A stretch of 32,168 nucleotides of DNA from Bacteroidia bacterium (GTDB lineage Bacteria; Bacteroidota; Bacteroidia; UKL13-3). Position 1 is the first letter of the stretch, and the number at the start of each line of letters is the position of its first letter. The stretch spans positions 1-32,168 of the forward strand of contig JACMQU010000071.1 of assembly GCA_014376805.1 (NCBI GenBank). Reading direction: 5' to 3'. Under the pieces are notes generated by a model. It was given only the letters and a program-made list of their open reading frames with translations, did not search any database and was not told the origin of the DNA. The position numbers and the translations under genes were made by a program. This document shows, in pieces, positions 5,229-29,699 of the stretch.

Positions 5229-5260
5229 AGACGGCTTATAGCCGTTTAACCGTCCTTTTT
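5229..5260 (+). terminator. Hairpin with T-run before the head module
   Basis: ACGGC (5231-5235) pairs with GCCGT (5241-5245); alternatively GACGG (5230-5234) pairs with CCGTC (5250-5254), followed by TTTTT (5256-5260). The T-run overlaps the upstream element of the late-type promoter starting at 5251. Confidence 0.45.
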
Positions 5261-5289
5261 AACCATTAATTACGCTATATACTTGTTAT
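5251..5289 (+). promoter_or_regulatory. Late-type phage promoter, copy 1 (head module)
   Basis: CGTCCTTTTT (5251-5260; two mismatches to TGTCCTTTCT) is followed after 17 bp by TATACTTG (5278-5285), 4 nt before ATG 5290. This is the weakest of the five copies, but the spacing matches the others. Confidence 0.55.
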
Positions 5290-6213
5290 ATGCGTAATTG
5301 GAAATTTTTATTAAGCTCTCAACTCGTTCGTGGCAACTGGTTTCTGCACGATGCCTACGCCATCGGCGGACTGGTTGATGCTGCTCAGTTACTATCTCCA
5401 ACTCAAAACCTCGAAGCTTTAACCCAGGATTTATCTCAACGTCCATCTTATGAAGTAAAACACTTTAGTGAGGGCACACCAATTTTTACGGCACAGGTTA
5501 CAGATGGCCAAAGCTTTTACGATGCCTTACCGCAAGGCTCTAGGGCTATTTTTAGTTTATCGGGTACTTTATTAAAATATGGCACTTTATGCACCTATGG
5601 CACCGAAGAGATAGGCGCTTTTATTCAGGAAGCTGCCAACCATCCCAATATTTCTGGTGCATTGTTTTTAATTGATAGCGGAGGCGGTGCAGTTAATGCA
5701 GTTGCTCCCTTAACACAAGCGGTGCAACAATTTAAGGCATTAAACAAACCAACGCTGGCCCTGTGCGATGCTGCTTATTCTGCAGCGTACTGGGTTGCTG
5801 CCGAGTGCGATTATATAATGGCTGCCAATACCATATCATCAGGCTTTGGAAGTATAGGCGTAATGACAAGCTGGCTAGACTATAGCGAATACCTTAAAAA
5901 GCTAGGCGTTACGGAGCATATCATTTACGCTCCGGAATCTACCGAGAAAAATTTATCGTACGAGCTGGCCAAAGCTGGCAAATACGAAGAAATCAAAACC
6001 GAAGACTTATCGCCATTAGCAAAAAACTTTATTAAAAACGTGCAAAGCCGTAGGCCACAATTGGTAGATGACGGTAAAGTACTAAAAGGTAAAACCTACC
6101 TAGCAGAAAAGGCACTATCAATAAAACTTATTGATGGTATTGGTAATCTGCAAAAAGCGCAAGAACATTTAAGCAACCTTATTACTATTCAAAACTTTTT
6201 AAACTCTAAATAA
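5290..6213 (+). CDS. S49-family (SppA-like) phage head maturation protease
   Basis: The protein has 307 residues. The conserved S49 core is visible: LIDSGGG (127-133), DAAYSAAYWVAAECDYI (160-176) with S164 as the likely nucleophile, and SGFGSIGVMTSW (184-195). K220 lies about the right distance downstream to be the catalytic lysine, but I cannot align it. In phages this family cleaves scaffold and capsid precursors in the prohead and is encoded next to the major capsid gene, as here (8 nt gap). No signal peptide is evident, consistent with a cytoplasmic prohead protease. It is the first gene after late-type promoter copy 1. Confidence 0.85.
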   Translation: MRNWKFLLSSQLVRGNWFLHDAYAIGGLVDAAQLLSPTQNLEALTQDLSQRPSYEVKHFSEGTPIFTAQVTDGQSFYDALPQGSRAIFSLSGTLLKYGTLCTYGTEEIGAFIQEAANHPNISGALFLIDSGGGAVNAVAPLTQAVQQFKALNKPTLALCDAAYSAAYWVAAECDYIMAANTISSGFGSIGVMTSWLDYSEYLKKLGVTEHIIYAPESTEKNLSYELAKAGKYEEIKTEDLSPLAKNFIKNVQSRRPQLVDDGKVLKGKTYLAEKALSIKLIDGIGNLQKAQEHLSNLITIQNFLNSK

Positions 6214-6221
6214 TCTAAACT

Positions 6222-7793: not shown

Positions 7794-7811
7794 TCTTTTT
7801 AAAATTTAATC

Positions 7812-7844: not shown

Positions 7845-7884
7845 ACAAAAATATTTATCGGCGTTAAGCCACAAAATTTAAAAC

Positions 7885-11317: not shown

Positions 11318-11911
11318 ATGGGAAATCCGCTATTTTCTTTAAGCGAAGTAGTGCAAAAGGCAAAGCAAAACCAGCCCAATACGCAAGATAAAGCCGAAAT
11401 ACATCGCTTTAAATTCCTGAATAAACACCTCACAAAAGTAGAATCATTAAAAGCCCTTAACGGAAGATTGCCCACAGCGGGTGAGATATTCTTTTTATGG
11501 ACCTTGAACAGCTTTAACGCCTTTACATTTATTGTTTATGTGATTAAACATTGCGGAGTTATTGAGGAACTTAATTTATCAACCTATTCCATCAACGACC
11601 GGATATTGACATCATTAATTAAATGGTACGATAAAGGCGAAATTTTAAAGATTAATATTTCCATTGCCGACAGCATTAAACACCGTATGCCCCGGATATA
11701 CGATCAGTTATCAGCGCAAGCCAAAAACCGAAACATCAATGTTTCTTTTAACTGGAATCATTCTAAAATTACAGCTATGCGTACTGCAGAAGATTATTTT
11801 GTGGTAGAAGGTTCTGGTAATTTCTCTGAGAATGCCCAGCATGAACAATACATCTTCCTGAACGATAAAAACGTTTACGATTTCCGCACAGCCTGTATTT
11901 GTCCTTCCTAA
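11318..11911 (+). CDS. Phospholipase D-like protein with a single HKD-like half-site
   Basis: The protein has 197 residues. The C-terminal part contains HSKITAMRTAEDYFVVEGSG (148-167) followed by NFSENAQHEQYIF. HxK at H148/K150 and the downstream GSGNFS match one half of a PLD/phosphatidylserine synthase-type active site; the usual D of HxK(x)4D is not in the canonical place. PLD enzymes need two halves, so a dimer is expected, as in Nuc-type nucleases. The role in the phage is unknown; DNA processing near packaging is a guess from its place just before the terminase genes. The 3' end overlaps late-type promoter copy 2. Confidence 0.6.
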   Translation: MGNPLFSLSEVVQKAKQNQPNTQDKAEIHRFKFLNKHLTKVESLKALNGRLPTAGEIFFLWTLNSFNAFTFIVYVIKHCGVIEELNLSTYSINDRILTSLIKWYDKGEILKINISIADSIKHRMPRIYDQLSAQAKNRNINVSFNWNHSKITAMRTAEDYFVVEGSGNFSENAQHEQYIFLNDKNVYDFRTACICPS

Positions 11912-11939
11912 AAAAAAACTATAGAATTATTTTAGTACT
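11900..11939 (+). promoter_or_regulatory. Late-type phage promoter, copy 2 (packaging genes)
   Basis: TGTCCTTCCT (11900-11909; one mismatch) is followed after 18 bp by TATTTTAG (11928-11935), 4 nt before ATG 11940. The upstream element lies within the last codons and stop of the PLD-like gene. Confidence 0.65.
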
Positions 11940-12884
11940 ATGAGCCAAATTACTCTTAGTCAGCATATACAACTATCGGCCGAGCAGATAGACGAGCTTG
12001 AGCGATTGTCTGCCCTGGGTTATACCTATGCAGATATGGCTTTGTATTTCAATTTTGATGAAAAGATATTTATTGCTAATGCAGAGTTTAAAGAAAGCAC
12101 TATAAACAGGCACATCCGCCGCGGTGCTATGATGTCTATTGCCCGGGAGCAACAAGCAATTTTAACAGCTGCAGAAGGTGGTAACATCACAGCATCGCAA
12201 GAGCTGGGTAAAATTAGAAGGGATAGAGGTTTTGAGATTAGCAAGCTAGATGTTTTTGGAGGCTTCCAGAAAGTAAGGGATTTTGAGAAACTGCAAAATT
12301 ATATTGATGGTGGTTGTAAAGATGATTTAAGTAATGAGGAAAGTATTTGGATTGAAGCTTTAAGCTTAATGAATAGTATGGACCGCAAGCACGGCCGCCG
12401 TACTACCATTGCCTTTTTTACCAAAGCCCCATTTAATCTCACTTACAGCAGAGCGAGCGATATGTATGACGAAAGTCAGAACCTTTTTTACATTGATAGA
12501 AATGTAGAAAAAAAAGCACTCCGCAATAAAAAAGCCGAGCAGATAGAAGAGGCCGCTGCCGTTGTGTTACAAACTGCCAAAAATTCTAAAGATTTTGAAG
12601 TTTACGGAAACTTACAGATGCAAGCTGCAAAGCTACGGGAGTTGGATAAAGTAGATCCGGAACCGATAAACACAGAATTGTATTTGAAGCCAGTTAGGAT
12701 GTTTTCTTTAGATCCTACGCAAGTTGGCATTCCATCCATAAACAGATCGGAATTAAACGCACAGATTGAAGCTTTAGAAATCCCCGAAAAGGATAAGACA
12801 CGGTTGCGACAGGATGCAATGATTGAGCAAATTATTTTAGAAGATAAATTGAATGAGCTACAGGAAGAAAGTAAAAGCAGATAG
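11940..12884 (+). CDS. Putative terminase small subunit
   Basis: The protein has 314 residues. Residues about 15-65 (SAEQIDELERLSALGYTYAD then a NRHIRRG helix) look like a helix-turn-helix DNA-binding region. AILTAAEGGNITASQELGKI (73-92) recalls small-terminase linkers. The C-terminal half is helical and charged. The gene directly precedes and overlaps the large terminase by 32 nt, which supports the assignment more than sequence alone. It is longer than typical small terminases (130-200 residues), so it may carry an extra domain. The role would be recognition of phage DNA for packaging. Confidence 0.65.
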   Translation: MSQITLSQHIQLSAEQIDELERLSALGYTYADMALYFNFDEKIFIANAEFKESTINRHIRRGAMMSIAREQQAILTAAEGGNITASQELGKIRRDRGFEISKLDVFGGFQKVRDFEKLQNYIDGGCKDDLSNEESIWIEALSLMNSMDRKHGRRTTIAFFTKAPFNLTYSRASDMYDESQNLFYIDRNVEKKALRNKKAEQIEEAAAVVLQTAKNSKDFEVYGNLQMQAAKLRELDKVDPEPINTELYLKPVRMFSLDPTQVGIPSINRSELNAQIEALEIPEKDKTRLRQDAMIEQIILEDKLNELQEESKSR

Positions 12885-14601
12885 TGCTGAGGTACAAAAA
12901 AACTTTTCGAACTGGCTAGCGCAGGTTTGTGCTATGATAATGCCCCGTTTCTTTTATATGATAGCGGGTAGAGGTTCGGCAAAGACTACAGAATTTCAGG
13001 CAGAGCGATTAATAGAATTGATGTACGATATGCCCGGTGCGCCTGTGGTTTGGGTAAGTGACACCTATACCAATTTGCAAAAAAATATTTTACCTACCCT
13101 GCAAGAAGCCTTAGAAATGAAAGGTTACCGCGAGGGCACACACTACGTTATTGGTAAGCAACCGCCAGTATTTACCCAAACAGAAAAACTAAGCTTAGAG
13201 GCAAGCTTACGGGCTCATTTTTGGCAGCCACATAACAAGGTTATCAGCTACAAAAACACAATGATTTTCTTTACTGGGCTGAACATAACTTTTGGATCTT
13301 TGGATAGGCCCGCATCTTTAGCGGGGCGTAGTTATGTACACATGTTTGGCGATGAAGCCAAATACTTTAAAGAAAGCAAGATTGGTAACTTAATGAAAGC
13401 CGTTAGGGGATATCGGGTTAAGTATGGTAACTCGGTTTTTTATCGTGGCCACACACTAACTACAGATATGCCCAATAAAGCCAATATTGGCGAGTACGAC
13501 TGGATGCTGAATTACAGAAACAAAGTAGATACCAATGGCATAATGTTAGCCTTAAAAACTGCTTTTGTAGTTAACCAGGCATTGCAGGAATTGTTGGCAG
13601 CAAAACAAGCAGGCGATGTGATAGAGATTGCTAAAAAGAAACGGACTTACGAACGTTGGAAAGAACGTTGGCTTGCGGTACGTAGCCATAAAAGTGCGCA
13701 AACTTTCTTCTATATAGCCAGCTCTTATGTTAACGTTGATATTTTAACTCCTGAGTATTTTGAAGATGCCAGTACTGATGAACTGGGAGATTTTAAAACA
13801 GCTATTTTAAGTATGACAGCTGCTTTAGAAAGTGGCGAAAGGTTTTACGCTAATTTAGCAGAAAGGCATTTGTATTATGATGGCACAGATACATCTGTTA
13901 CAGAAAATTTAGGCTTACTAGATATTGAAGATTGCCGTGTTTTGCGTTACCATAACCCATTAAGGGCTTTAGATATTGGGATGGATTTTGGTAATATGAT
14001 GAGCATGACCATTGCCCAACCAGATACTAAGAATTACCGTTGTATTAAATTTTTATACACTTTATCGCCTCAATATATTCCGGATTTAGCCGCAAACTTT
14101 AAAGCTTACTTTAAGCATCAGAAAGAGAAAACCATAAACATGTATTATGATAGGGCTGGTAATAACTATAAAAAGGCTGGACAAGATTTAGCTACTCAGC
14201 TAAAAAAAGCCATTGAATTTGATACGGTGAACGGACAAGAAACACGCAGCGGTTGGCGAGTTATTTTAATGAGCGAAGGGCAAGGCAACATTGGAATAAA
14301 TGAAGAATGGAATTTTATGAACGATTTGCTAAGCAATAATAATAAGAATTTACCCAAACTGCTAATTGATGCCTACCACTGCAAACCTTTAAAATGTAGC
14401 TTAGAAGGTACCCGGGCAAAAAAGAATGCCAAAGGCGAAATGATAAAGGATAAAAGCACCGAGAAACTGGCTATACACCGTTTACCGCTAGAAAGTTCTA
14501 ACGCATCAGATAGTTTTAAATATTTAATGATGCGTAAAATTTGGCGCAATTTGGTAAGAGGAAAAAGGGAATTAGATTTAGGTGATGCGGTGGTTAGATA
14601 G
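12853..14601 (+). CDS. terL: Terminase large subunit
   Basis: The protein has 582 residues. The ATPase motor carries Walker A GRGSAKTT (39-46) and Walker B-like MFGDEA (164-169; D167, E168 as catalytic pair). The nuclease domain carries LDIGMDFG (373-380; D374 and D378 as metal ligand candidates), YYDRAGNNY (431-439) and a C-terminal LGDAVVR with D578. The order ATPase then RNase H-like nuclease is that of phage large terminases, which translocate and cut concatemeric DNA. The start ATG 12853 lies 32 nt inside the small terminase gene. A small hairpin follows the stop (TTGCCA 14602-14607 with TGGCAA 14613-14618). Confidence 0.85.
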   Translation: MSYRKKVKADSAEVQKNFSNWLAQVCAMIMPRFFYMIAGRGSAKTTEFQAERLIELMYDMPGAPVVWVSDTYTNLQKNILPTLQEALEMKGYREGTHYVIGKQPPVFTQTEKLSLEASLRAHFWQPHNKVISYKNTMIFFTGLNITFGSLDRPASLAGRSYVHMFGDEAKYFKESKIGNLMKAVRGYRVKYGNSVFYRGHTLTTDMPNKANIGEYDWMLNYRNKVDTNGIMLALKTAFVVNQALQELLAAKQAGDVIEIAKKKRTYERWKERWLAVRSHKSAQTFFYIASSYVNVDILTPEYFEDASTDELGDFKTAILSMTAALESGERFYANLAERHLYYDGTDTSVTENLGLLDIEDCRVLRYHNPLRALDIGMDFGNMMSMTIAQPDTKNYRCIKFLYTLSPQYIPDLAANFKAYFKHQKEKTINMYYDRAGNNYKKAGQDLATQLKKAIEFDTVNGQETRSGWRVILMSEGQGNIGINEEWNFMNDLLSNNNKNLPKLLIDAYHCKPLKCSLEGTRAKKNAKGEMIKDKSTEKLAIHRLPLESSNASDSFKYLMMRKIWRNLVRGKRELDLGDAVVR

Positions 14602-14849: not shown

Positions 14850-14889
14850 TGTCCTTTCTTTAAAAAACCAAAATATATACTTTGGTAAT
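14850..14889 (+). promoter_or_regulatory. Late-type phage promoter, copy 3 (portal cluster)
   Basis: TGTCCTTTCT (14850-14859, exact) is followed after 18 bp by TACTTTG (14878-14884), 5 nt before ATG 14890. Between the two boxes it shares TAAAAAACCAAAAT-like sequence with copy 5. Confidence 0.7.
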
Positions 14890-18974: not shown

Positions 18975-19052
18975 TTATTGAGATTTTAGTTTATTTGTGC
19001 TTGGCGGTGGTGTAGAAACTGGCACAGTTGGCCTCTCTATAGGATCTACCAT
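18975..19052 (-). CDS. Short proline-rich peptide, 25 residues (minus strand)
   Basis: ATG at 19052 lies one base after the stop of the 71-residue minus-strand gene (TAAGATG on the minus strand), so translation could be coupled. The peptide MVDPIERPTVPVSTPPPSTN then KLKSQ is proline/threonine-rich. It could be real or a fragment; it is convergent with the tail completion gene and ends right at its stop. Confidence 0.3.
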   Translation of the reverse strand: MVDPIERPTVPVSTPPPSTNKLKSQ

Positions 19053-19053
19053 C

Positions 19054-19269: not shown

Positions 19270-19302
19270 ATACCAAATTTATCTGCTATTTCGCAAACCT
19301 CT

Positions 19303-19318
19303 ATTTACAATTGTAAAT
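19303..19318. promoter_or_regulatory. 16-bp palindromic operator-like site, copy 1
   Basis: ATTTACAATTGTAAAT is a perfect palindrome 33 nt upstream of the minus-strand start at 19269. Its TTTACA..TGTAAA core recurs at 19929-19942, suggesting one regulator for both ends of the island. Confidence 0.45.
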
Positions 19319-19328
19319 ATCTGATTTA

Positions 19329-19368
19329 CAAAAAAAATGCCACTTACTACTAAGTAGCAAGCGGCATT
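19329..19368 (-). terminator. Minus-strand intrinsic terminator
   Basis: On the minus strand AATGCC pairs with GGCATT (19336-19341 and 19363-19368) with inner CTT/AAG and CTACT/AGTAG pairs, then a run of T. It follows the stop of the minus-strand gene ending at 19411. Confidence 0.7.
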
Positions 19369-19410
19369 ACAATTAACGACCCGTTGTAAAAGTACGTTTT
19401 TTGTTTAGAA

Positions 19411-19752
19411 TTACATAGAATGATGTTCTGATGTTTCCCTCAACCTGATTACCTCGGCAAGGTTGCAATCGTTCAGGAAATCGGGGATGTGGCTCAGTTG
19501 AGCCTTTTCCTCGTCAGTTAAAAAGTCATAGCTTTCTCCGTAATACCAAAAGTAAATTTTCAGGAAAATGGATAACATAACCTCGGAGTTGGTCATGTTC
19601 TTAAAGTTGCAGAAAGCCTTTAGGGTTTCTTCTGTTACGGTACTGTGCTGGCTGCTCACTACGGTGTAGTGGTTTTGTTGGTACTCGTCTGTTTGTTGAA
19701 AGTAAACGCCAGGCTCTAGCGGTTCTTTTTCGTTTTTGTTGATTGATCCCAT
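19411..19752 (-). CDS. Hypothetical protein (minus strand)
   Basis: This 113-residue acidic protein starts MGSINKNEKEPLEPGVYFQQ, is Gln/Tyr-rich in the N-terminal third and helical later (EVMLSIFLKIYFWYYG), with a histidine-containing end (TSEHHSM). The family is not recognised. The frame is open to 19791, but the extra residues fall within a long inverted repeat that looks like leader RNA, so I take ATG 19752. It has its own terminator at 19329-19368 and possibly a structured 5' leader. Confidence 0.55.
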   Translation of the reverse strand: MGSINKNEKEPLEPGVYFQQTDEYQQNHYTVVSSQHSTVTEETLKAFCNFKNMTNSEVMLSIFLKIYFWYYGESYDFLTDEEKAQLSHIPDFLNDCNLAEVIRLRETSEHHSM

Positions 19753-19762
19753 AATGTTATAT

Positions 19763-19884
19763 ATACAAACACGCCTAGGCGCTGCGAACAACCATCGGAA
19801 TACGAAGTAGTGCAGGGCATCATCCTGCTCACCTAGACGTGTTTGTATTTTTTAAGAAATTTAACATTGGATTTTCATCCAATG
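19763..19884 (-). ncRNA. Candidate structured leader RNA
   Basis: Two elements lie just upstream of the minus-strand gene starting at 19752. CATTGGAT and ATCCAATG (19865-19884) form an 8-bp hairpin which, read on the minus strand, closes a GAAA tetraloop. A 19-bp stem (19763-19781 with 19830-19848) encloses a 48-nt loop that contains GCAGG..CCTGC. On the minus strand the two imperfect positions of the long stem become G-U pairs, favouring minus-strand RNA. The distance to the start codon is about 10 nt. It could be a cis-regulatory leader or a separate RNA; only the pairing is seen. Confidence 0.4.
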
Positions 19885-19928
19885 ATTGTTCGCATTACAA
19901 ATGTGGGATATAAGTTGTAAATATTTTG

Positions 19929-19942
19929 TTTACAAGTGTAAA
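19929..19942. promoter_or_regulatory. Palindromic operator-like site, copy 2
   Basis: TTTACAAGTGTAAA differs by one central base from the core of the site at 19303-19318. It lies between the divergent minus-strand gene (start 19752) and the exonuclease gene, so it could control both. Confidence 0.4.
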
Positions 19943-20031
19943 AATCGCCTTTCGTTTTATTTTTGGCAATACTATTATTCTAGTATTATATTATGTTTGG
20001 GCTGAAAAGGAATTACTTAAAAGGAAAAAAT

Positions 20032-20964
20032 ATGGGTGATGATTTCGACTCTGATAAATATAAATTTGATTTTATTGCCATTGATTTTGAAACTGCAAAT
20101 GGATCTAGGCTTTCTGCCTGTGCAATCGGTTTGGTGTTTATTAAAAAGGATAAAATAGTAGATAGTAAAAAGTTTTTAATAAAACCACCGATTAATGAAG
20201 CGTTCGATTATTTTGCCATTTCACTTCATGGTGTTCGTAATTCACATGTTCAAAATAGTTTAAATTTTAAAGAACTCTGGGATTCAGAATTATCTAAGTA
20301 TTTCAATACCAATTTAATTGTTTACCATAATGCAAGTATGGATTTAAGTGTATTGAAAAATGCAGTTAAATATTATGAGATAACAAATTTCAACATCAGA
20401 CATATTGATACTGCTATTCTTGCCAAGAATTGTATTCAAATAAAAAAGTTAAGTGATATAACAACAAATTTAGGTATCAAATTTAAAAATAATCACAATC
20501 CAGTCGAAGATGCGGAAGTTTGCGCAATGGTTTATCTGGAGTTAGTTAATAAGTACCCAAACAATAAAGTTCTACCAGAAAATTTAACTAGTAATGATAT
20601 AATTAATCCACCGCCAAAGAAACCTTCCATATTTAAGCCAACAAAGGAAGAATTAATTAACTGCGAAGCCATTATAGCTAAATACCTAATTGACAAATCA
20701 GACATTGAATTGTTAGTTATAGAAAATAATAATTTTTTAGTTACTGGTGTTTTAGAAACAGATAGAAATTTGATTGAAGAATTTATTCAATCGAATGGAG
20801 GTAAATTATTAGGTGTAAGTCCTAATCTAAATTATGTATTCGTAGGGGAAGATTACGGTCATAAAAAGATAGAAAAAATCGAAAAATTAAACATCGATAG
20901 AAGTTGTAATATCAAGTTTTTAAAAGATAAAGAATATTACTATTTAGCAACTTGGTATAGTTGA
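20032..20964 (+). CDS. DnaQ-like DEDDh 3'-5' exonuclease with C-terminal BRCT domain
   Basis: The 310-residue protein has the exonuclease core AIDFET (D18, E20), YHNASMDLSVL (D104) and NHNPVEDAEV (H155, D160), the DEDDh active-site set. A proline-rich linker (PPPKKPSIFKP, about 200-210) leads to a BRCT-like domain (about 235-310: FLVTGVL, IEEFIQSNGGKLLG, YVFVGEDYGHKKIEK). Such fusions resemble bacterial DNA polymerase III epsilon-like proteins used in repair or defence rather than replication. ATG 20032 follows AAAAGGAAAAAAT; ATG 19993 is an in-frame alternative. It sits in the accessory island with divergent regulation, so it looks like cargo rather than a virion gene. Confidence 0.75.
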   Translation: MGDDFDSDKYKFDFIAIDFETANGSRLSACAIGLVFIKKDKIVDSKKFLIKPPINEAFDYFAISLHGVRNSHVQNSLNFKELWDSELSKYFNTNLIVYHNASMDLSVLKNAVKYYEITNFNIRHIDTAILAKNCIQIKKLSDITTNLGIKFKNNHNPVEDAEVCAMVYLELVNKYPNNKVLPENLTSNDIINPPPKKPSIFKPTKEELINCEAIIAKYLIDKSDIELLVIENNNFLVTGVLETDRNLIEEFIQSNGGKLLGVSPNLNYVFVGEDYGHKKIEKIEKLNIDRSCNIKFLKDKEYYYLATWYS

Positions 20965-20979
20965 TAATATATTTACAAA

Positions 20980-21507
20980 ATGAAAAAACTTATTATTTTA
21001 ATTGGATTATTTGTAGCCAGTACACAATCATTTGCGCAATGTAAATTTGCATTAGATTCTGTAGATACTTTTACCGGTAAAAAGAACGACAAAGCAATGT
21101 TAGTATATTTAACTGGCGGTGTATTATCTGGAGGCGAGATGCTTACAATTACCAAAACCGATAGTGTAAATTATTTAGGCTATGTGAGCTTAGCTTTTGT
21201 TTCTTCATGGTCTTCGAAACCATTTGATTACTCACAATCTAGCATTATGCTAAAGTTTTTAGATAATAGCATTTTAAATTTACCTAATATACAAGCCAAT
21301 GATGTCTCTACCCAAACGGGAGATAGGGGAATGTCAATGATGGGCGTAAATTGTAAACTTAGTAATGAGCAATTATTGTTTTTAAGTAAAAACCCTATTA
21401 TTAAAGCAAGAGTTGTATATAATCAAAAAACGCTATTAGGCTTAGATTTAAAAATTACTGAAAAGGCCAAGCGGAAAATACAAGAAGCAGCAAATTGTTT
21501 ACTGTAA
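20980..21507 (+). CDS. Secreted hypothetical protein
   Basis: The 175-residue protein has a typical signal peptide (MKKLIILIGLFVASTQSFAQ) with a likely cleavage after SFA. The lipobox is imperfect (FAQC), so signal peptidase I is more likely than a lipoprotein. The mature part contains two or three cysteines and a KITEKAKRKIQEAANCLL tail. The family is not recognised. It starts 15 nt after the exonuclease gene and is probably cotranscribed with it. A periplasmic or surface protein expressed from a phage island suggests lysogenic conversion, which is inference. Confidence 0.6.
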   Translation: MKKLIILIGLFVASTQSFAQCKFALDSVDTFTGKKNDKAMLVYLTGGVLSGGEMLTITKTDSVNYLGYVSLAFVSSWSSKPFDYSQSSIMLKFLDNSILNLPNIQANDVSTQTGDRGMSMMGVNCKLSNEQLLFLSKNPIIKARVVYNQKTLLGLDLKITEKAKRKIQEAANCLL

Positions 21508-21784
21508 AGAGTTCTCTATCTGCAATGTTTTATTTCAAAACATTTAGCAGCATTAAATAAACCCGATAGAAATAAAAACAAGGGTAAGCACTAAATTAAA
21601 AAAGTGGTTATTGTGTTTTTATTGGCATTCCGCTTAAGCACGCCCAGCAAGGTTTAAAACCTTGCTGGCAAATTATTTTAAATTTCGTTTTAAAATTAAA
21701 CGCTGTTTTCTTTCAGATTAAAGGCTATTTCTCAAAGAAAAGAGGTAAGAAAACTAAGCCTTGCGCATCAAAACAATTATTAAA
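21508..21784. other. Intergenic region between convergent genes
   Basis: This 277-bp gap separates the secreted-protein gene from the convergent coiled-coil gene. Apart from the hairpin at 21644-21668 I see no gene or clear signal in it. Confidence 0.6.
21644..21668. terminator. Hairpin between convergent genes
   Basis: CCAGCAAGGTTT and AAACCTTGCTGG pair perfectly over 12 bp around one base. It lies between the ends of the plus-strand secreted-protein gene and the minus-strand coiled-coil gene and may terminate both; T-runs are weak on either side. Confidence 0.5.
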
Positions 21785-22213
21785 TTAAGCTTCTATTAAC
21801 GTTTTGTAAACCTGTAAACGGTCTGCAATTTTTAGCATTATAAAACTAATAACATCTTTAATAATTACGGGATTGGTAATTTTTGCAATGCTGTCATCCT
21901 TGTAATTACTTTGTTTTTTATAAATCTCAATGTGGTATTCCTGGCTACTAAAATTATTTTCGTCATTCTCTTTTTTCAAATCTTCCGCCAGTTCCTCAAT
22001 TTGTTTTTGATAGGCTTCCAGCTTCGCATGGCGGTTAATTAAACTTTGTTTTTGAGAGTAAAACAAAGTTTTTTCTTCAAAGCTTTTAGGCAAGGTCTCT
22101 AATTTGGATTTTAAACTTTCTACCTCTTTCAAAAGTTCTAAAGTGGTTTTTTCCTGTGTTTCTGCGCTCGGCACTTTTACCATTGTGGCAGGCGTTTTTG
22201 TTTGTGTATTCAT
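21785..22213 (-). CDS. Coiled-coil hypothetical protein (minus strand)
   Basis: This 142-residue, highly charged protein has a Thr-rich N-terminus (MNTQTKTPATMVKVPSAETQ), then a long heptad-rich region (about 25-85: LLKEVESLKSKLETL ... KQIEELAEDLKKEN) and a hydrophobic C-terminal helix region (VIIKDVISFIMLKIADRLQ). No named family is recognised. It stands alone and convergent to the secreted-protein gene, in the right half of the accessory island. A DNA-binding or scaffold role cannot be told from the sequence. Confidence 0.55.
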   Translation of the reverse strand: MNTQTKTPATMVKVPSAETQEKTTLELLKEVESLKSKLETLPKSFEEKTLFYSQKQSLINRHAKLEAYQKQIEELAEDLKKENDENNFSSQEYHIEIYKKQSNYKDDSIAKITNPVIIKDVISFIMLKIADRLQVYKTLIEA

Positions 22214-22691
22214 ATTTGGGTCGTTTAAAAAAACAAGTACATTCTTGCTTTTTGCTTATCTAAATATAAGTAAAAAAACTTATTTATTAAAATATAAAAT
22301 ACTGTATATAAGGCACTTATAATATACTATTGTCTATAAATCCTTTTTAAAGATAAACAGCCGTTTGTTGTTCCATTAACTAATTTATTTAGTCAATTCA
22401 ATCAAAAATTATGTTTTATGGCTTCTAAAAAGCCTAAAACAAGCCACTTATTTAGAATAATAATAAATTAAGTGCTTAATAATCAGGATTTCAAGCCTTT
22501 GCAATTTTGTAAAAATTGCAAAGGCACACAACTAACCCCGAACCGCCCTGAGCTGTATTTGCACCCGCAAGCCCCCAAAAACTCGGATATATGACCCTCC
22601 CGACCCCTAAAAAATACCACCTGTTTACCCGTGCTTGCTCAGCCAAATTGTTTCCTTCATCATATTTAATATCAATACTACATACTATTAA
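22214..22691. other. Gene-free region at the right end of the accessory island
   Basis: About 480 bp hold no convincing gene. They contain a perfect 14-bp inverted repeat (22495-22525), then a stretch unusually rich in C (about 22530-22640), and end shortly before late-type promoter copy 4. Nothing else is recognised. Confidence 0.6.
22495..22525. repeat. Perfect 14-bp inverted repeat
   Basis: GCCTTTGCAATTTT and AAAATTGCAAAGGC are separated by three bases. No T-run follows on either side, so a simple terminator is unlikely; it may be a protein-binding site or the edge of an inserted element. Confidence 0.45.
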
Positions 22692-22696
22692 GTGTG

Positions 22697-22736
22697 TGTC
22701 CTTTCTGCATACACGTATCTAAATATCTTAGTTAAC
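22697..22736 (+). promoter_or_regulatory. Late-type phage promoter, copy 4 (tape-measure cluster)
   Basis: TGTCCTTTCT (22697-22706, exact) is followed after 17 bp by TATCTTAG (22724-22731), 5 nt before ATG 22737. This spacing decides the start of the following gene in favour of 22737 over 22692. Confidence 0.7.
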
Positions 22737-23123
22737 ATGTCCTACATCAAGCAAGAGTTTGTAAAACGAATACTTATAGAAGAAGGCGAGCGACTAAAGA
22801 AGTACCAGGGCTTGGCTCTACAAAGCAGGTTGCAGTTTCACACCTACCGGGTGTTTAACAATAGAACTATGGATGTTACCGGTGGTGATGTGTTGGATGG
22901 CAAACTATCCTTTACCCACACAGCAGAACAACGCTTCTTAGATATCAAGAGAAAGATGCGCAGTAAGACTACCAATCGCAGTTATACCAGAGTCTATAAA
23001 ATACACAACCGTTTCGTGTACGGACAGTACCAGCGCATTGCAACCAGATTGATGTTTGACTTCACCGATGAAGTTGCCGAACAAATTAAACTAGACTTTA
23101 ATAACAATAAACAAAATGGCTAA
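22737..23123 (+). CDS. Conserved phage tail-region protein before the tape measure
   Basis: This 128-residue basic protein starts MSYIKQEFVKRILIEEGERL and contains LSFTHTAEQRFLDIKRKMR (about 61-79) and YKIHNRFVYGQYQRIATRLM. Proteins with a matching HNRFVFGxYGxIAxxLM pattern lie just before the tape-measure gene in Bacteroidetes prophages (from memory); their role in tail assembly is not known to me. It overlaps the tape-measure gene by 8 nt. An upstream in-frame ATG at 22692 is rejected because it precedes the promoter. Confidence 0.65.
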   Translation: MSYIKQEFVKRILIEEGERLKKYQGLALQSRLQFHTYRVFNNRTMDVTGGDVLDGKLSFTHTAEQRFLDIKRKMRSKTTNRSYTRVYKIHNRFVYGQYQRIATRLMFDFTDEVAEQIKLDFNNNKQNG

Positions 23124-26100
23124 GAAACTACGGGATGAAGACTTAGTGCTTAACATCATAGTGAATGGTGACCAGGGCAAGAAGGAAATGGGTCAGCTTG
23201 AAAAGGCTATTAAAGATACCAATCAGGAAATACGCCTGCTACAGAAAGAGCAGAAAGCATTGGCAGAGGCTGGGAAAAAAGAAACCGAAGCTTACCGTGC
23301 ATTAACTGCAGCTATTAAAGAAAAGAACAACGCTATAACTATTTCAGAAGCTAGGCTGGCGACATTACGTAAAGGCATGAAGCTTACGGAAATGAGCATG
23401 AGTGATTTAGCCCGAGAGCAAAAGCGATTAACTATGCTGATGCGTACAGCCGTACCGGATAGTGAAAACTATAAGGCTTACCAATTACAGCTTAAGGCGG
23501 TTACGGACAGAGTGGCCGAGCTTGGCGGCAAGGGTAAAGAGACCGGGGCAAGCCTGCAAAGCATGGCTACAAAGTTTAATCATTATATCGGTATAATGAG
23601 TGCTGGTATTCTAACTATTACTGGAATAGTGCAAGGCTTAAAAGCTATTACTCAGGCATACGTAGATTTTGAAGATAAAATGGTAGATGTTCAAAAAACT
23701 ACAGGACTAACCCAGATTGAAGTAAAAGAGCTGAACGAACAATTAAAAAAAGTAGATAGTAGATCAGCACAGGAAGATTTATTAGGCTTAGCCAGAGTAG
23801 CGGGTAAATTAGGTATTTCTGGTAAAGAAGATATTTTAGGATTTGTAACTGCAGCCGATAAAATAAAAGTTGCTTTAAGCGAGGATTTAGGTGGCGATGT
23901 GGAAGAATCTATTAACCAGATTGGCAAACTGGTTGATTTGTTTAAAGTTAAAGATGAGTTTGGCATAGAGCAATCTATGCTAAAGGTAGGTTCTGCCGTA
24001 AATGCTTTAGGTGCTGCCAGTACTGCAAGTGAAGGTTATTTGGTTGAGTTTACCAAACGAGTAGGCGGTGTGGCACCAGCTGCTGGCGTATCTATACAAA
24101 ATACTTTAGGCTTGGCGGCTACATTAGACCAGCTGGGGCAAACTGCCGAGGTTTCTGCTACAACATTTAGCCAATTAATACCCGATATGTTTAAAAATAC
24201 TGCCCAATATGCAAAAGTTGCGGGTATGGGTGTAGATGGTTTTGCTAAACTTTTAAAGACCGATGCTAACGCTGCCATGATTAAGTTTTTAGAAGGCTTA
24301 AAAGGCAATAATGCTGGCATGGGCGAAATGGTACAACATTTTGGCAAATTGGGTATTGATGGTAGCCGTTCAGTTTCTGTACTATCTGTTTTAGCAAACA
24401 ATGTAGGGGTTTTAAAAGAACAACAGGTATTATCTAACCAAGAATTTAAAAAAGGGACTTCTCTACAAAATGAGTTTACTCTCAAAAATGAAAATGCTGC
24501 CGCTGGATTAGAAAAAGCCAAAAAAGCTTTGTTTAACATGACTGTAGAACTTGGCGAAAAGCTTTATCCTGTGCTTACAGTTTCTACAAGTGGGTTTACT
24601 TATTTGGTTAAAATTTTAAGCGTATTAACTGATTTTCTGATTGATAATAGAAAGCTAATTATAACCGGTACCGCAGCTTGGTTAGCTTATAACACGGCAG
24701 TGCAAGTAAGTAATTTATTGAGTGGAGAAAGTATAGTGTTAAAGAAACTAGAAACCGTATGGGCTAAAACTAAAATATTTTGGGATAACGCCCAAACTGC
24801 AGCTTTACATTTACTAAGTGCGGCAACATTAATTTTAAGAGGCGAAACCGCCGCAGCTAAAGCTGAAATGGTTGCTTTTAATTTGGTCACTAAAATGAAC
24901 CCTCTTGGTTTGTTATTAGCGGTATTGGCTGTTGCCGTTGTAGCCTGGCAATTATATGCTGATAAACTTAGCGTAGCTCAAAAAACCCAATTAGCCATGA
25001 ATGATGTAGAAGCTGAGGCACAAAAAAGTATTGTTGAGCAAAAGCGAGTACTTAAAGATTTATTAGCAATTGCACAAAATAAAAATATTGCAGATTCAAT
25101 CCGGATTAAGGCAATTAAAGAGATTAATGCATTATCGCCAGAATTTCTCAATGGCTTAACCTTAGAAAATATAAATACAGTTAAAGCCACAACAGCTATA
25201 AAAGCTTATAATGCCGAACTTTTAAATACTGCCCGCATAAAAATTGCAAAACAAAATTTAGATGAGCTTGATAAAAAAGAAGTTGATCTTGAAATTAAAG
25301 GCCCAGAAACTGGTATAATGGATAAGGCGGTAGGCCAGTTTAAAAGTTTAATGTCTGGTAATTTTAAGAATTACGCAGAACAGGGTACTAAAGATGCGAT
25401 TAAGGAGAATTACAAAAATGCGAAAGAAGAGATTAAAACACAGCGTGAATCTATCAACGCATACATACAAAAATATAGCGTTACACCTATAAAAATCAAT
25501 CCAGATACTAATAACGAAAATCAAATTTCTATAAAAAAAATAGGGCAAATGACTATCGGCGAACTCAAAGAAAAACAAAAAGAGTTAAATGCCGAGTTAG
25601 ATAATACCGTAAAAGGCAGTGCCAAATATGTAGAGATTGCCCGCCAATTAAAGCAAATAGAAAATATACTTTCTCCCAAAAAGTCTAAAGAAACAAAAGA
25701 TCATGATGCTGAGCTAAAAGCCCAAATAGCTTACCAACATCAATTAATTTTAGGTAACAAAACTACCATTGAGCAGGAAGAAATTTCTTACCAAGAACGT
25801 TTAAAAAAAGCTGGGCTATTTAACGTTTCCAAAGATGCACTGGATAAACAATTACTTTCCGCTCAAAAAAGTAATAATGTAAATCTAATAAGAGCAACGC
25901 AATTAAAAATAGATGCTTTAAGTGTTTTGGAAACCCAGCATTTAGCTAATATTCAAAAGAAAAACGAGGATCAACTTAAACAAGATCTGGATGCTCAAAC
26001 CAGTGCAAATGATTTAAAAGTAGCAAAGACAAAAGAGCTGTTTCTTGCCAAAGAATTAGCTTCGGAAGAATCTACGGCCTCTTTAGCGGATAAAGAAATT

Positions 26101-27198
26101 GCTGCAGCAGCTTTATCAACCGAGTTAGAGGTTGAACTTTTTAATCAGGAACAAACCCGTTTAATGGAGCGGGCAATTCTTTTGAATACTTACCTACAGC
26201 AAGATAACGAAAGGGATCTTTTATCACTTGATGCAAAAAAAGCTTATGCAGCAGAACTTGATGCAATTCAGCAAAAGTCTATCAATAACGAAGTAAATCA
26301 AAAGCTGAAATCTGCCGACTTAACACGGAAAGTAGCAGGTGATAAACGCAAGGCAGAAATAGATTTACAAAACGCTATTGTTGATGCACATCAAAAAGCG
26401 TTTGGATTAATCGCTGGTTTATTTGCTCAAAACTCTACAGCTTATAAAGCATTTTTCCTTTTAGAAAAAGTTGCTTCAGCTGCAAAAGTTATTATGAGTT
26501 TGCAGTTGGAGTTGGCAGCAATCAGATTAAGTACTGCTTTAGGCGTAGCGCAAGCAATGGCTATTCCCATTGCTGGACCAGGTATTGCAGCTGGTGTTAA
26601 AGCAGCTGGAGTTGTACAAGCAGTTACTGCCAAAATTAGTGCTGGCGTATCACTCGCCACCATTGCCGCCACCGCCATAGGTGGCGTTACCGGTAGAGAA
26701 GATGGCGGTTATACTTTAGATACCAAACGCCAACAAGATGGTAAAATGTTTAGCGCAAATTATGCGCCTTACCAACGCGGTTATATTGGCAAACCTACTT
26801 TATTGGTAGGCGAGGCGGATCCTGAATTTGTGGCCAATGGCTCGGCAGTTAAAAACCCAACCATTAAACCATTCTTAGATATTATAGATATTGCCCAACG
26901 TAATGGCACCATTAATACGCTTAACCTACAAAAATACATAGAACGCCCATCAATGGTAATGGTTTCGGGCAGAGAGCAGGGCGGTTATAGCAATGCAGAT
27001 ACGGCGTACTCTGCAAAGCAAGAAAGTAATAACGATAGCAAAGCATCGGCGCAAGCCATAGAAATGTTGGAAATGCTAACCAAACTTAACAACCTTTTAA
27101 GCAAACCCATCACCGCTGAGGTTGCACTTCTTGGCCGTAACGGCTTTGTAGAAAAACAAAAAGAATTAACAGCACTAGAAAATCAAAATAATTTATAG
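23116..27198 (+). CDS. Phage tail tape measure protein
   Basis: The 1360-residue protein has an N-terminal coiled coil (about 20-140), a hydrophobic segment (157-175) and a TP901-type core (FEDKMVDVQKTTGLT, 185-199, and following helices). More hydrophobic helices follow (about 500-530 and 593-615: LGLLLAVLAVAVVAWQLYA), then a long charged coiled-coil region and a glycine/alanine-rich hydrophobic stretch (about 1130-1195). This is the plan of tape measure proteins, which set tail length and act in DNA injection. At about 0.15 nm per residue the tail would be near 200 nm; no sheath gene is visible, so a siphovirus is likely. The gene is the longest in the window and shares the promoter at 22697. 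Confidence 0.9.
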   Translation: MAKKLRDEDLVLNIIVNGDQGKKEMGQLEKAIKDTNQEIRLLQKEQKALAEAGKKETEAYRALTAAIKEKNNAITISEARLATLRKGMKLTEMSMSDLAREQKRLTMLMRTAVPDSENYKAYQLQLKAVTDRVAELGGKGKETGASLQSMATKFNHYIGIMSAGILTITGIVQGLKAITQAYVDFEDKMVDVQKTTGLTQIEVKELNEQLKKVDSRSAQEDLLGLARVAGKLGISGKEDILGFVTAADKIKVALSEDLGGDVEESINQIGKLVDLFKVKDEFGIEQSMLKVGSAVNALGAASTASEGYLVEFTKRVGGVAPAAGVSIQNTLGLAATLDQLGQTAEVSATTFSQLIPDMFKNTAQYAKVAGMGVDGFAKLLKTDANAAMIKFLEGLKGNNAGMGEMVQHFGKLGIDGSRSVSVLSVLANNVGVLKEQQVLSNQEFKKGTSLQNEFTLKNENAAAGLEKAKKALFNMTVELGEKLYPVLTVSTSGFTYLVKILSVLTDFLIDNRKLIITGTAAWLAYNTAVQVSNLLSGESIVLKKLETVWAKTKIFWDNAQTAALHLLSAATLILRGETAAAKAEMVAFNLVTKMNPLGLLLAVLAVAVVAWQLYADKLSVAQKTQLAMNDVEAEAQKSIVEQKRVLKDLLAIAQNKNIADSIRIKAIKEINALSPEFLNGLTLENINTVKATTAIKAYNAELLNTARIKIAKQNLDELDKKEVDLEIKGPETGIMDKAVGQFKSLMSGNFKNYAEQGTKDAIKENYKNAKEEIKTQRESINAYIQKYSVTPIKINPDTNNENQISIKKIGQMTIGELKEKQKELNAELDNTVKGSAKYVEIARQLKQIENILSPKKSKETKDHDAELKAQIAYQHQLILGNKTTIEQEEISYQERLKKAGLFNVSKDALDKQLLSAQKSNNVNLIRATQLKIDALSVLETQHLANIQKKNEDQLKQDLDAQTSANDLKVAKTKELFLAKELASEESTASLADKEIAAAALSTELEVELFNQEQTRLMERAILLNTYLQQDNERDLLSLDAKKAYAAELDAIQQKSINNEVNQKLKSADLTRKVAGDKRKAEIDLQNAIVDAHQKAFGLIAGLFAQNSTAYKAFFLLEKVASAAKVIMSLQLELAAIRLSTALGVAQAMAIPIAGPGIAAGVKAAGVVQAVTAKISAGVSLATIAATAIGGVTGREDGGYTLDTKRQQDGKMFSANYAPYQRGYIGKPTLLVGEADPEFVANGSAVKNPTIKPFLDIIDIAQRNGTINTLNLQKYIERPSMVMVSGREQGGYSNADTAYSAKQESNNDSKASAQAIEMLEMLTKLNNLLSKPITAEVALLGRNGFVEKQKELTALENQNNL

Positions 27199-29649
27199 AT
27201 GTTACAATTTATAGTAGATGGCCAACAGGTAGATTTACCTCCCGATTTTAAGTTATCCTTAATAATAGAAAACCCACTGTTTTTAACAGATAAAATACCT
27301 GTGCCCTACAGTACCAATTTTGATTTACCGCCTACTCCCAAAAACCTCAAGACTTTTAATTATCCAAACCGCATCAACACCCGTATAAATTTTATTCAAG
27401 CTTACCCTGTAAATATAATATTTGATTGTATACAGGTATTAAATGGTTTTTTATTGTTAAAAGAAGTATCCCAAAAACTAAATTTTTCTTTCCGTGGTGT
27501 AGAAATAACCGATAATATTACAAAGCAAACCAACAATATTTTTTTAGGCAATTACCAATTTGGCCAAGGTTCTCGTCTTACGGTTGATTTCGAAGATCCG
27601 TCAAACTTTGCATATAAATATAAAAACCTTGTACAGTCAACTATTAGCGGCGAAAACGCAATGGTTGCAGCACCCATTATGCTAAAAGATGATGAGGGTA
27701 AAGATGCTATACCAGAATCTTTAGTAGTACTAGTTGGCAGGTATGCACACCCAAACCGCTATTTAAGTTTTTATAACGCAATAGAAAAGCGGTTTATATT
27801 TGACGCCAAAGTAATATTTACTACAACAGTACCTTTTCATTCGCCCACTTTTTTAATGCCGTTTTTATATCACATCATAAATGTGGTTTTTGGCGATAGC
27901 TTAATAAGTAACCCTTTTGCAGATGGCGAATTACGAAAATTGGTAATACCAACCACCTATCATAAAAACTACAACAATAACTTATTTTCTGATTTAAGAG
28001 GGATATTAATAGATGGAAGCTATAAAAATTTGAATGTTATAATTGATAATCCATTTCCAATTCCAAATAGCGTTAATTTAGAAAGTTTCACTCCGCAAAT
28101 ACCTGTTATAGATTTAATAAAAGAAGTTTTTAAACTCTTTTGCTTAAGCTTATTCACCGTAAATAATAAATTTAAAATTGTTTACAATAAAGACATCATC
28201 AACAATAAGCAGGTAGAAAACTGGACAACCAAATTAATGGGTAAAGAAACTATAACTCAAGAAGCTGCAAAAACATATAATTATGGTTATGCAGATTATA
28301 TGTCTGAACAAGATTTAGTTATAGAAAATATTAACCAACTACCTAAGCTTGCTTCTTTAGTACCTAAACCAATAAATGATGATAAAGATGTTTATTACAG
28401 AATTCAAAATACCGATCAGGTTTTTTGCGTAAAAACAAAAACACAAACAAAAGAAACGGTAACTAAACTTTCGCAATACCAGGTTAAAAAAACAGGATTC
28501 GAAACCACAAATAAAAAAGGTGATGCTTTTGATGCAACTGTTAAAATTTCGCCAATGCCCACTACAATTGATGATTATCATTGGCTGATAGACCAAGCAA
28601 CGGTAATCAATCCAGATACACAACAATCAGAAATAAAACCGGTAAGTACAGCTATACGCCGTTGGGCTGTACCGCAATGGGATGGCAAGCGTTTAGAAAT
28701 GCCAGAAAAATTTAACATCATGATCTATCATGGCTTAAGTGAAGCTTTTGAACCTATAGACGAATATCCATTATTGAGCGGTTTTGATACGGACCATCAC
28801 GGCCGTAAACTTTCAGACCTTACCCTTAAATGGGATGGCGAAAATGGTTTACTTAACCGCAATCATAAAGAATATAAGGCATTTGTAGAGAAAGAGAAAA
28901 TTGCAATAAAAGGCACTTTTTTATTAACGGCATTAGATATTAAAAATTTGGATTTAACCGTCCGTAAAAACATCAAAAACCGCAACTTCTTCATCAAAAA
29001 AATTAATGTAACCATAAGCACAGACAAAGTAGAGCCCGCCGATGTTGATTTGATAGAAGATATAGATCCTTTAACGCCTAACTACGTTGCCGTACGCAGT
29101 CAGCGATTTGCAAAAGCCAACTGCAATACCGGGCTACAAGGTAGTAACGTGCCTTACACAAAAGTTTACACCAGTAGCCTATCTCAAATTGCAGCAAATA
29201 ATTTAGCTGATGCAGATGTTAACTATATGGCAGAAGGACAAGCTTATGCAAACCAAAATGGCTTTTGTGTTAATAATGGTTTGGTTTACTTATCCTTTAC
29301 AACTTTCAAACAAAATATTAGAAGAGTTTATACATACAGCCAAAATTATTATGTTAATTGGGATGTAGTTATGGAAATACGTTTAACTACACCCGTATCG
29401 CAAGATTTATTGGTAAACATTCGCTTAGATTATCCGCAAGTTGAGAAGCCCGGAGGGGGCAAATTTAGTGGTCAGTATATTGCAGCAAGTGTAGTTTATC
29501 TTACTGCAATTATAAAAGCAGGGCAATTTTTTGTACATAAGGTGGCTTATATAGCTAGCACTAAATTCGATCCTCAATACAGAACGCCAATACCATCATT
29601 AACATCAACAACTCCCAATACTATTGGTTCTATAAAAATTCATTTATAA
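27199..29649 (+). CDS. Distal tail or baseplate protein with DUF5977-like C-terminal region
   Basis: The 816-residue protein starts directly after the tape-measure stop. The N-terminal part (LQFIVDGQQVDLPPDFKLSL, 2-21, then KIPVPYSTNFDLPPTP) resembles distal-tail proteins of Bacteroidetes phages. Residues about 625-695 contain RFAKANCNTGLQG and GQAYANQNGFC, the pattern of DUF5977, a repeat-like domain of Bacteroidetes surface and phage proteins. A glycine-rich segment (EKPGGGKFSGQ) and beta-rich C-terminus follow. The likely role is in the tail tip, linking tape measure, tube and receptor-binding parts; the exact role is inferred from order. Confidence 0.65.
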   Translation: MLQFIVDGQQVDLPPDFKLSLIIENPLFLTDKIPVPYSTNFDLPPTPKNLKTFNYPNRINTRINFIQAYPVNIIFDCIQVLNGFLLLKEVSQKLNFSFRGVEITDNITKQTNNIFLGNYQFGQGSRLTVDFEDPSNFAYKYKNLVQSTISGENAMVAAPIMLKDDEGKDAIPESLVVLVGRYAHPNRYLSFYNAIEKRFIFDAKVIFTTTVPFHSPTFLMPFLYHIINVVFGDSLISNPFADGELRKLVIPTTYHKNYNNNLFSDLRGILIDGSYKNLNVIIDNPFPIPNSVNLESFTPQIPVIDLIKEVFKLFCLSLFTVNNKFKIVYNKDIINNKQVENWTTKLMGKETITQEAAKTYNYGYADYMSEQDLVIENINQLPKLASLVPKPINDDKDVYYRIQNTDQVFCVKTKTQTKETVTKLSQYQVKKTGFETTNKKGDAFDATVKISPMPTTIDDYHWLIDQATVINPDTQQSEIKPVSTAIRRWAVPQWDGKRLEMPEKFNIMIYHGLSEAFEPIDEYPLLSGFDTDHHGRKLSDLTLKWDGENGLLNRNHKEYKAFVEKEKIAIKGTFLLTALDIKNLDLTVRKNIKNRNFFIKKINVTISTDKVEPADVDLIEDIDPLTPNYVAVRSQRFAKANCNTGLQGSNVPYTKVYTSSLSQIAANNLADADVNYMAEGQAYANQNGFCVNNGLVYLSFTTFKQNIRRVYTYSQNYYVNWDVVMEIRLTTPVSQDLLVNIRLDYPQVEKPGGGKFSGQYIAASVVYLTAIIKAGQFFVHKVAYIASTKFDPQYRTPIPSLTSTTPNTIGSIKIHL

Positions 29650-29660
29650 ACATAATTGCC

Positions 29661-29699
29661 TGTCCTTTCTAAAAAAACCAAAATGGGTAATTTGGTTTT
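29661..29699 (+). promoter_or_regulatory. Late-type phage promoter, copy 5 (distal tail cluster)
   Basis: TGTCCTTTCT (29661-29670, exact) is followed after 17 bp by TAATTTG (29688-29694), 5 nt before ATG 29700. The stretch AAAAAACCAAAAT between the boxes is shared with copy 3. Confidence 0.7.

Follow-up and report, generated by a model that had tools for sequence, protein, structure and literature searches.

How does a phage of the Bacteroidota switch on its structural genes? The question is raised by contig JACMQU010000071.1 of the Bacteroidia bacterium assembly GCA_014376805.1, which we analyzed over its entire length of 32,168 bases (the window) and in which all proteins of recognisable type are phage proteins. 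A ten-base element, TGTCCTTTCT, followed at nearly constant spacing by a box resembling the -7 element of Bacteroidota promoters, lies shortly upstream of five genes in the window. These five sites, designated P1 to P5 (Table 1), are probably late promoters shared with many related Bacteroidota phages. On the sequence evidence, it is likely that they are read by the host RNA polymerase together with a phage activator acting at the element, generalized as (N)GTCCTT(T), and the most likely activator is the product of a gene upstream of P1 that we call REG.

Five sites with a common geometry

Exact copies of the element stand at 14850, 22697 and 29661; the copy at 11900 differs from it at one base and that at 5251 at two. 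The gap between the element and the box is 17 bp at 5251, 22697 and 29661, and 18 bp at 11900 and 14850. Each box has five of the six fixed bases of TAnnTTTG, none has all six, and the ATGs downstream begin 39, 40, 40, 40 and 39 nt past the start of the element, from P1 to P5. A preliminary description of this contig had given the same positions and mismatch counts and the same 17-18 bp gap leading to a box at every site, and we obtained identical results. Its ATG distance of 39 or 40 nt is correct for all five sites of the window, but does not extend to the family, as the relatives vary.

The preliminary description also held that each site opens a functional module. Proteins related to the window portal and terminase are encoded by Flavobacterium phages 6H and laban6-1 (laban), Cellulophaga phage Ingeline, Bacteroides phage BT-TP2 and the Porphyromonas phages, and by homology P1 opens the head module, P2 packaging, P3 the portal module and P4 the tape-measure module. 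The P3 counterpart precedes the homologous gene in 6H, laban, G147, G149, L018 and Sphingobacterium L028 (G and L numbers are our labels for genomes and loci), and the P4 counterpart does so in Ingeline, G147, G149 and G148. No homolog of the gene at 29700 was found among the compared phages. The next gene, at 30369, resembles genes past late sites in G148 and in a Porphyromonas prophage, and the fifth module is called distal tail on the basis of its position and this likeness.

In general form, each of the five sites reads (N)GTCCTT(T), a gap of 19-20 bp and a Bacteroidota -7 box with an imperfect match. GTC is common to all lineages seen, and GTCCTT(T) is present in most of them. The first base of the element is T in 86% of the sites used to train the matrix described below, with C or A a frequent replacement at the late site that comes first after REG; such sites occur in the window (P1), L013, L014, L015, L018, L019, L025, BT-TP2, Porphyromonas, L095 and L067, so that P1 shares its C/AGTCC with the first late site of many relatives. 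Boxes with all six bases are found at 92 of 166 family sites, a set chosen for at least five matches and partly by the exact pattern.

In Flavobacterium johnsoniae the -7 box has been placed at -12 to -5 (PMC6847099). If the boxes are set at -12 to -5, the element would fall at about -40 to -33, overlying the -33 position, with its third T at about -33. At the five sites this position reads TTTC, TTTT or TTCC after NGTCC, and at none of them is it the TTTG of the host, in agreement with the earlier proposal that an upstream element takes the place of the -33 TTTG. At P3 and P5 (14867-14886 and 29677-29696) there is also a pair of complementary hexamers, ACCAAA-N8-TTTGGT, lying before the predicted start, the first in the spacer and the second sharing bases with the -7 box.

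Background in the host genome

Searching the 3.88-Mb assembly (183 contigs, 88.5% complete) gives three exact copies of the 10-mer, all of them in this contig and on the coding strand; the backwards-read control has 23. The pattern TGTCCTT-N20/21-TAnnTT has eight matches genome-wide, four of them within this 0.8% of the sequence (backwards control, 19). We also scored both strands with a matrix trained on 147 sites from the relatives, with the window left out. The five window sites rank first to fifth (19.0, 18.3, 17.2, 15.6 and 14.3), and the next score is 8.5, on the antisense strand. As the training sites were preselected for GTCCTT, a good box and an open reading frame (ORF) starting with ATG, the matrix result confirms rather than discovers. 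We reject a chance origin on the grounds of the spacing, the ATG context and the recurrence across phages, although the 10-mer taken loosely and by itself is not enriched (see below).

Recurrence in related phages

We assembled a set of 17 phage genomes or loci, the window among them, and carried out the spacing-constrained motif search that the preliminary description had recommended. TGTCCTT indeed recurs with a box at a fixed offset: among 97 copies on both strands, a box matching at five of six bases begins 28 nt from the element in 30 and 27 nt in 7, while every other offset from 12 to 45 nt has zero to three. The peak at 27/28 nt thus emerges from a count in which the offset was left free. 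An ATG ORF begins 36-90 nt downstream of 57 of the 65 sites having both element and box, versus 25 of the 119 copies having no box, with the element defined per genome for 6H, laban and G154. We considered the possibility that the element is tied to the ATG, but the ATG of the relatives is 39 to 84 nt away, and once 126 nt, which rules this out; the conserved quantity is the 27/28-nt offset from element to box.

The sites stand at corresponding genes across the family, namely the protease, the pre-portal gene, the gene at 22737 or the tape measure, and the distal genes. In the upstream regions of the four named relatives, the element at module-first genes is TGTCCTTTT in BT-TP2 and Ingeline, TGTCTTAA in 6H and TGTCACAA in laban, the last two phages thus having their own versions placed at homologous genes. 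The homolog of gene 10636 has a late site upstream in relatives and none in the window. A Chryseobacterium prophage (L030) has homologous portal and terminase genes, and no box-bearing GTCCTT was found in the 21.6 kb of it that we examined; REG was not found either, but for the complete genome this is the result of the first, less sensitive profile only, so this absence is not firm. The IMG/VR contig G154 has TGTCCTA elements and two REG-family genes (L027 2762-3259 and L044 2374-2853).

Stretches were also drawn from IMG/VR by pattern alone, at least 120 per scan, and compared over the 120 listed for each scan. Among the matches listed, an ATG ORF lies 36-100 nt downstream in 81 of 127 evaluable cases at the natural offset of 28, versus 9 of 119 when four bases are added to the spacing, and stretches with more than one match number nine at the natural spacing versus none in the control. 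The spacing, the ATG context, the relatives' sites and the matrix together support the earlier suggestion of a phage-specific class of late promoters.

A candidate activator

REG lies between the replication genes and P1. The REG promoter listed in Table 1 has a predicted leader of 43 nt, and its perfect host-type box with TTTG would fit an early gene. The TTTG at 4167-4170 also closes a second perfect box, TAAATTTG, at 4163-4170, and either could serve. Among the ten perfect plus-strand boxes listed, only that at 4193-4200 has a TTTG 21-27 nt upstream, as do three boxes on the minus strand.

By tblastn, REG was found in seven loci (L013, L014, L015, L016, L022, L024 and L025), and L018 and L019 carry it too. 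An iterated profile joins 6H gp40, laban gp42, Ingeline 32734, BT-TP2 gp8, Porphyromonas 10115 and Leef_1 gp39 to the family, which is then present in 11 of the 11 larger phage genomes checked, twice in G154. The BT-TP2 record labels gp8 a transcriptional regulator on grounds that it does not state. REG has no significant Pfam, NCBIfam or PDB match, and the PHROG families containing REG members are annotated as of function not known. These kinships rest mainly on the iterated profiles. Searches of viral contigs with REG alone or with the portal gave no relative, tblastn of REG in the named phages gave none at E <= 1, and the first REG profile, run over whole records, missed laban, BT-TP2, Ingeline and G154. 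With that profile, hhalign assigned a probability of 63% to the 6H/laban pair, 4% to Ingeline and 0.2% to BT-TP2. Seeding a profile from Leef_1 gp39 alone was enough to recover the window REG, at E 6e-7, whereas an Ingeline seed by itself and a 6H/laban seed both failed to recover it.

In most copies, REG stands shortly ahead of the first late promoter. The first late-type site (box of at least five of six) is -11 to +1177 nt from the REG stop codon in 18 of 24 copies. Among the IMG/VR matches listed, REG is present in 6 of 120 promoter-drawn stretches versus 0 of 120 control stretches. When 395 genomes belonging to the phylum of the window were searched with REG as the starting point, five others matched (L286-L290). 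In L286, L287 and L289, NGTCCT with a five-of-six box at 28 nt is located about 455, 550 and 70 nt downstream of REG, on the same strand; L288 (a short stretch) and L290 (a weak match with a longer frame) have no such element. A loose filter of GTC plus box gives eight hits in the five REG-first loci, so such hits are not rare, and it is the CCT, the ATG ORF and the correct strand that single out the three loci. In L111 there is a late-type site, TGTCCTTTTG, with a six-of-six box about 611 nt before the REG stop codon, which suggests that in that phage REG may be under positive feedback.

Of two REG models, the second is good, with a mean predicted local distance difference test (pLDDT) of 89.3 and a predicted template-modelling score (pTM) of 0.74; it has a small alpha/beta N-terminal part followed by predicted helices at residues 81-108, 113-123 and 134-179. 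Neither model matched a PDB fold at E <= 0.001. In a viral library, the top fold match (first model only) is a 157-residue Leef_1 protein, with E 1.4e-3, probability 1.00 and template-modelling scores of 0.54/0.61. Two Leef_1 genes encode 157 residues; gp39 is the unnamed one and the one found by the REG profiles, and it is two genes before the Leef_1 protease. The basic C-terminal helix of the modelled REG may bind DNA.

Predicted leaderless mRNAs

With the box-to-start distance borrowed from the F. johnsoniae study (PMC6847099), the predicted leaders at P1 to P5 are 0, 0, 0, 1 and 0 nt, so that the 39/40-nt ATG distance in this phage implies leaderless mRNAs. Among the family's late sites, the predicted leader is exactly 0 in 39 of 157 and 1-8 nt in 15, with a second hump at 12-23 nt, while background boxes that have no element, mostly chance ones, have a zero leader in 56 of 3,847. 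When perfect boxes and ORFs of at least 100 aa are considered, the zero leader is found at 5 of 68 late versus 8 of 151 other boxes, indicating that the spike comes mainly from five-of-six boxes and short first genes. In the host assembly, perfect boxes are no more frequent at 4 nt from a following ATG than at 7 nt (79 versus 76; backwards controls, 63 and 59).

On our reading, the first residues of the 89-residue pre-portal protein look similar among phages that share the zero-leader arrangement, which makes its start codon credible. Predicted leaders exceed 10 nt in 87% of cases in F. johnsoniae (PMC6847099), and 5' untranslated regions shorter than 10 nt make up about 3.7% in Bacteroides thetaiotaomicron (PMC7366714), so leaderless late mRNAs would be unusual on these figures. 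In the window, perfect -7 boxes also occur 4 nt before an ATG with no late element at 3403-3417 (plus strand) and 19281-19267 (minus strand); these are possible leaderless genes beyond the late class.

Proposed mechanism and alternatives

What the sequences themselves show is the motif family with its spacing, its placement at module starts and its recurrence among phages, the location and recurrence of REG, and the excess of zero leaders. We propose that a promoter of the ordinary host type, located where the early region ends, would drive REG, and that REG would in turn activate all the late modules jointly, from head and packaging through portal and tape measure to the distal one. Host RNA polymerase, through its primary sigma factor, would read the imperfect -7 box at about -12 to -5, and the phage activator, most likely REG, would bind (N)GTCCTT(T), which spans roughly -40 to -33, and would recruit or re-aim the polymerase, supplying the upstream contact in place of the host -33 element. 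Transcription would start on the A of the ATG (at P4, 1 nt before it), giving each module a leaderless first late mRNA. The preliminary description had left the choice between a phage activator and a phage sigma factor; a candidate for the former has now been found, and we judge it the likelier of the two because the host -7 consensus is kept. The full form of the proposal is that many Bacteroidota phages have an undescribed late switch in which a REG of new fold acts on (N)GTCCTTT over the -33 position, with about a quarter of the promoters examined starting on AUG and giving leaderless structural-gene mRNAs in hosts where leaders below 10 nt are rare. This full form is possible, and we advance it tentatively.

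Several observations weigh against the proposal. At the level of the sites, the five window boxes are all imperfect, and the element at 5251 differs by two mismatches. The 10-mer by itself, when two mismatches are allowed, is not enriched (39 versus 31.4 expected; 15 of 100 shuffles reach 39). The 5251 site consequently rests on its box, its ATG and its place before the protease and not on the 10-mer, and in general it is the combination of all four features, element, spacing, -7 box and ATG, that carries the weight. In 6 of 20 Markov shuffles, chance alone produced a site reaching or exceeding 14.3, the score of the weakest of the five.

At the level of REG, the role we assign is drawn from position and co-occurrence, and searches of Pfam, NCBIfam and PDB gave no recognised DNA-binding domain or solved relative. 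No late-type site follows REG in 4 of the 24 copies, those of L041 (near a contig end), L042, L044 and L111, the last of these having its late-type sites upstream instead. The first such site is 4.6 kb away in L027 and 2.8 kb in L068, and L018 and L019 also have one inside REG. In a Muribaculaceae assembly, the REG match and the L029 phage genes are on different contigs. Element variants are not clustered on the REG tree either. In this test, which had 21 rows (L288, whose element is unknown, and the L289 copy were left out), the four variant rows required four changes, and 500 of 500 shuffles were as low; the four variant rows are not one same sequence, and the branches are long. 6H, laban and Ingeline form a single REG clade (support 97/97) with three different elements.

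The lack of clustering on the REG tree, together with the lack of a match to a known DNA-binding family, speaks for a rival reading in which the promoters are as we describe and the element is read by some other phage factor, a sigma factor or an early regulator, with REG serving as an anti-repressor or polymerase cofactor, for example. Some relatives do encode a LuxR-like early protein that could be such a factor. It is present in 6H, laban, Ingeline, Leef_1 and, weakly, G154, while REG is present in 11 of 11 genomes, and it was not found in BT-TP2, Porphyromonas, G147, G149, G148 or G153, all of which have the promoters (the sequences of G148, G153 and G154 are partial). This patchy occurrence rules the LuxR-like protein out as a universal activator. 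As the search begun from REG led to the element, we consider it rather unlikely that a factor other than REG reads it.

We also considered whether the host alone might suffice, with TGTCCTTT acting as an unusually strong upstream contact and timing set by replication or read-through. In favour of this, the TTT does overlie the -33 position and the sites retain a -7 box of host type. The exact 10-mer is confined to the phage contig, however, phages of two Flavobacterium hosts differ in the element at the same place, and the imperfect window boxes would be expected to be weak unaided, making a host-only promoter improbable. Finally, a short repeat upstream of several genes resembles a repressor operator too, but a 27/28-nt offset to a -7 box combined with a variable ATG distance is promoter geometry, and an element upstream of the predicted start would be outside the RNA, so that we give almost no credence to an operator or an RNA-level signal.

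Comparison with known systems

In phage T4 middle promoters, a MotA box centred at -30, 12 +/- 1 bp from the -10 element, replaces the -35 element while the -10 element is kept (PMC2988021). In sequence geometry, the arrangement of the phage sites is similar: a phage box over the upstream sigma contact, a host-type downstream box retained and tight spacing between them. The element here differs in its location, about -40 to -33, and in its longer distance of 19-20 bp to the -7 box, and the sites precede late genes, while the MotA system serves middle genes. No MotA homolog of REG was found among Pfam, NCBIfam and PDB sequence matches or in fold searches. By analogy, the late switch may work like the T4 middle promoters, but we place it outside that family, given the different spacing and the failure to detect a relative of MotA. 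Compared with the Bacteroidota primary-sigma promoters (TTTG / TAnnTTTG; PMC6847099 and PMC7366714), the sites have the same kind of -7 box, but upstream there is (N)GTCCTT(T) at fixed spacing rather than TTTG, and the window boxes match at five of six.

Phage Mu offers another comparison. Its C/Mor proteins are small phage proteins made before the late genes, which activate several late promoters near -35, and REG is proposed to be just such a small pre-late activator of several late promoters. It differs in having no Mor/C domain (Pfam scans of REG and 13 homologs gave no Mor-type match at E <= 1), and the phylum and the sigma factor differ as well.

The Duneviridae (6H, laban6-1 and Ingeline) share homologous portal, terminase and protease genes with the window, in the same order in 6H and laban, but identity in portal and terminase is about 32-41%, and 6H and laban have their own element versions. 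Leef_1 (Helgolandviridae) is more distant, with 25% identity over half the length of the terminase. The promoter plan and a REG homolog are present in all four. Flavobacterium sp. LMO6 releases laban6-1 with no stress applied (PMC7077304). The terminase also has relatives in IMG/VR contigs, with identities of up to 63%. As with phage late promoters generally, structural genes here are preceded by a common phage-specific sequence, a statement made at the level of sequence. We found no late-promoter class or late activator described for these phages in the open-licence literature; most subscription journals were outside the scope of this search. If the proposal is correct, it would provide a means to find and read the lytic switch of Bacteroidota prophages of the sea, gut and mouth, suggest a function for the REG family, which has none, supply a phage-controlled promoter for Bacteroidota genetics, and allow leaderless translation to be tested in a natural setting, within a phylum lacking Shine-Dalgarno sites.

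Other features of the contig

Table 1. Late-type sites, REG and associated genes in the 32,168-base window
Feature	Position	Strand	Description
P1, head module	5251..5285	+	element CGTCCTTTTT, offset 27; box TATACTTG, 5278-5285; predicted start = ATG 5290
P2, packaging module	11900..11935	+	element TGTCCTTCCT, offset 28; box TATTTTAG, 11928-11935; predicted start = ATG 11940
P3, pre-portal/portal module	14850..14885	+	element TGTCCTTTCT, offset 28; box TACTTTGG, 14878-14885; predicted start = ATG 14890
P4, tape-measure module	22697..22731	+	element TGTCCTTTCT, offset 27; box TATCTTAG, 22724-22731; predicted start 22736, ATG 22737
P5, fifth/distal module	29661..29695	+	element TGTCCTTTCT, offset 27; box TAATTTGG, 29688-29695; predicted start = ATG 29700
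REG	4248..4790	+	180 aa; candidate late-transcription activator (inferred); unannotated family
Likely REG promoter	4167..4200	+	perfect -7 box TATTTTTG, 4193-4200; TTTG 4167-4170 (26 nt before)
Small gene between REG and P1	4843..5226	+	127 aa; weak homologs in L013, L014, L024
Head maturation protease	5290..6213	+	first gene past P1; PHROG 53, E 6e-41; homologs in 6H, laban, Ingeline, BT-TP2
Packaging module past P2	11940..14601	+	gene 11940-12884, then large terminase 12853-14601; by homology
Pre-portal gene and portal past P3	14890..16519	+	89-aa pre-portal gene, portal 15161-16519; by homology
Tape-measure module past P4	22737..27198	+	gene 22737-23123, tape measure 23116-27198 (PHROG 25337, E 4e-120)
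DUF3987/helicase	1951		
Endolysin	9428		

No tRNA genes or Rfam matches at the gathering threshold were found in the window, and no exact terminal repeat of 16-200 bases is present at its ends. The stretch from 18975 to 22696, past the neck genes and ahead of the tape-measure module, contains an exonuclease-like gene at 19993-20964 (PHROG 192) and minus-strand ORFs. The genes at 19993 and 20980 had no tblastn match in the compared loci, and the region looks like cargo. Eight GTGTGCCA units, on both strands, lie at 3815-4101, flanked by a terminator-like hairpin (3712-3745) on one side and the REG promoter on the other; 0.57 would be expected in the whole window, and the units look like replication-origin iterons or operators.

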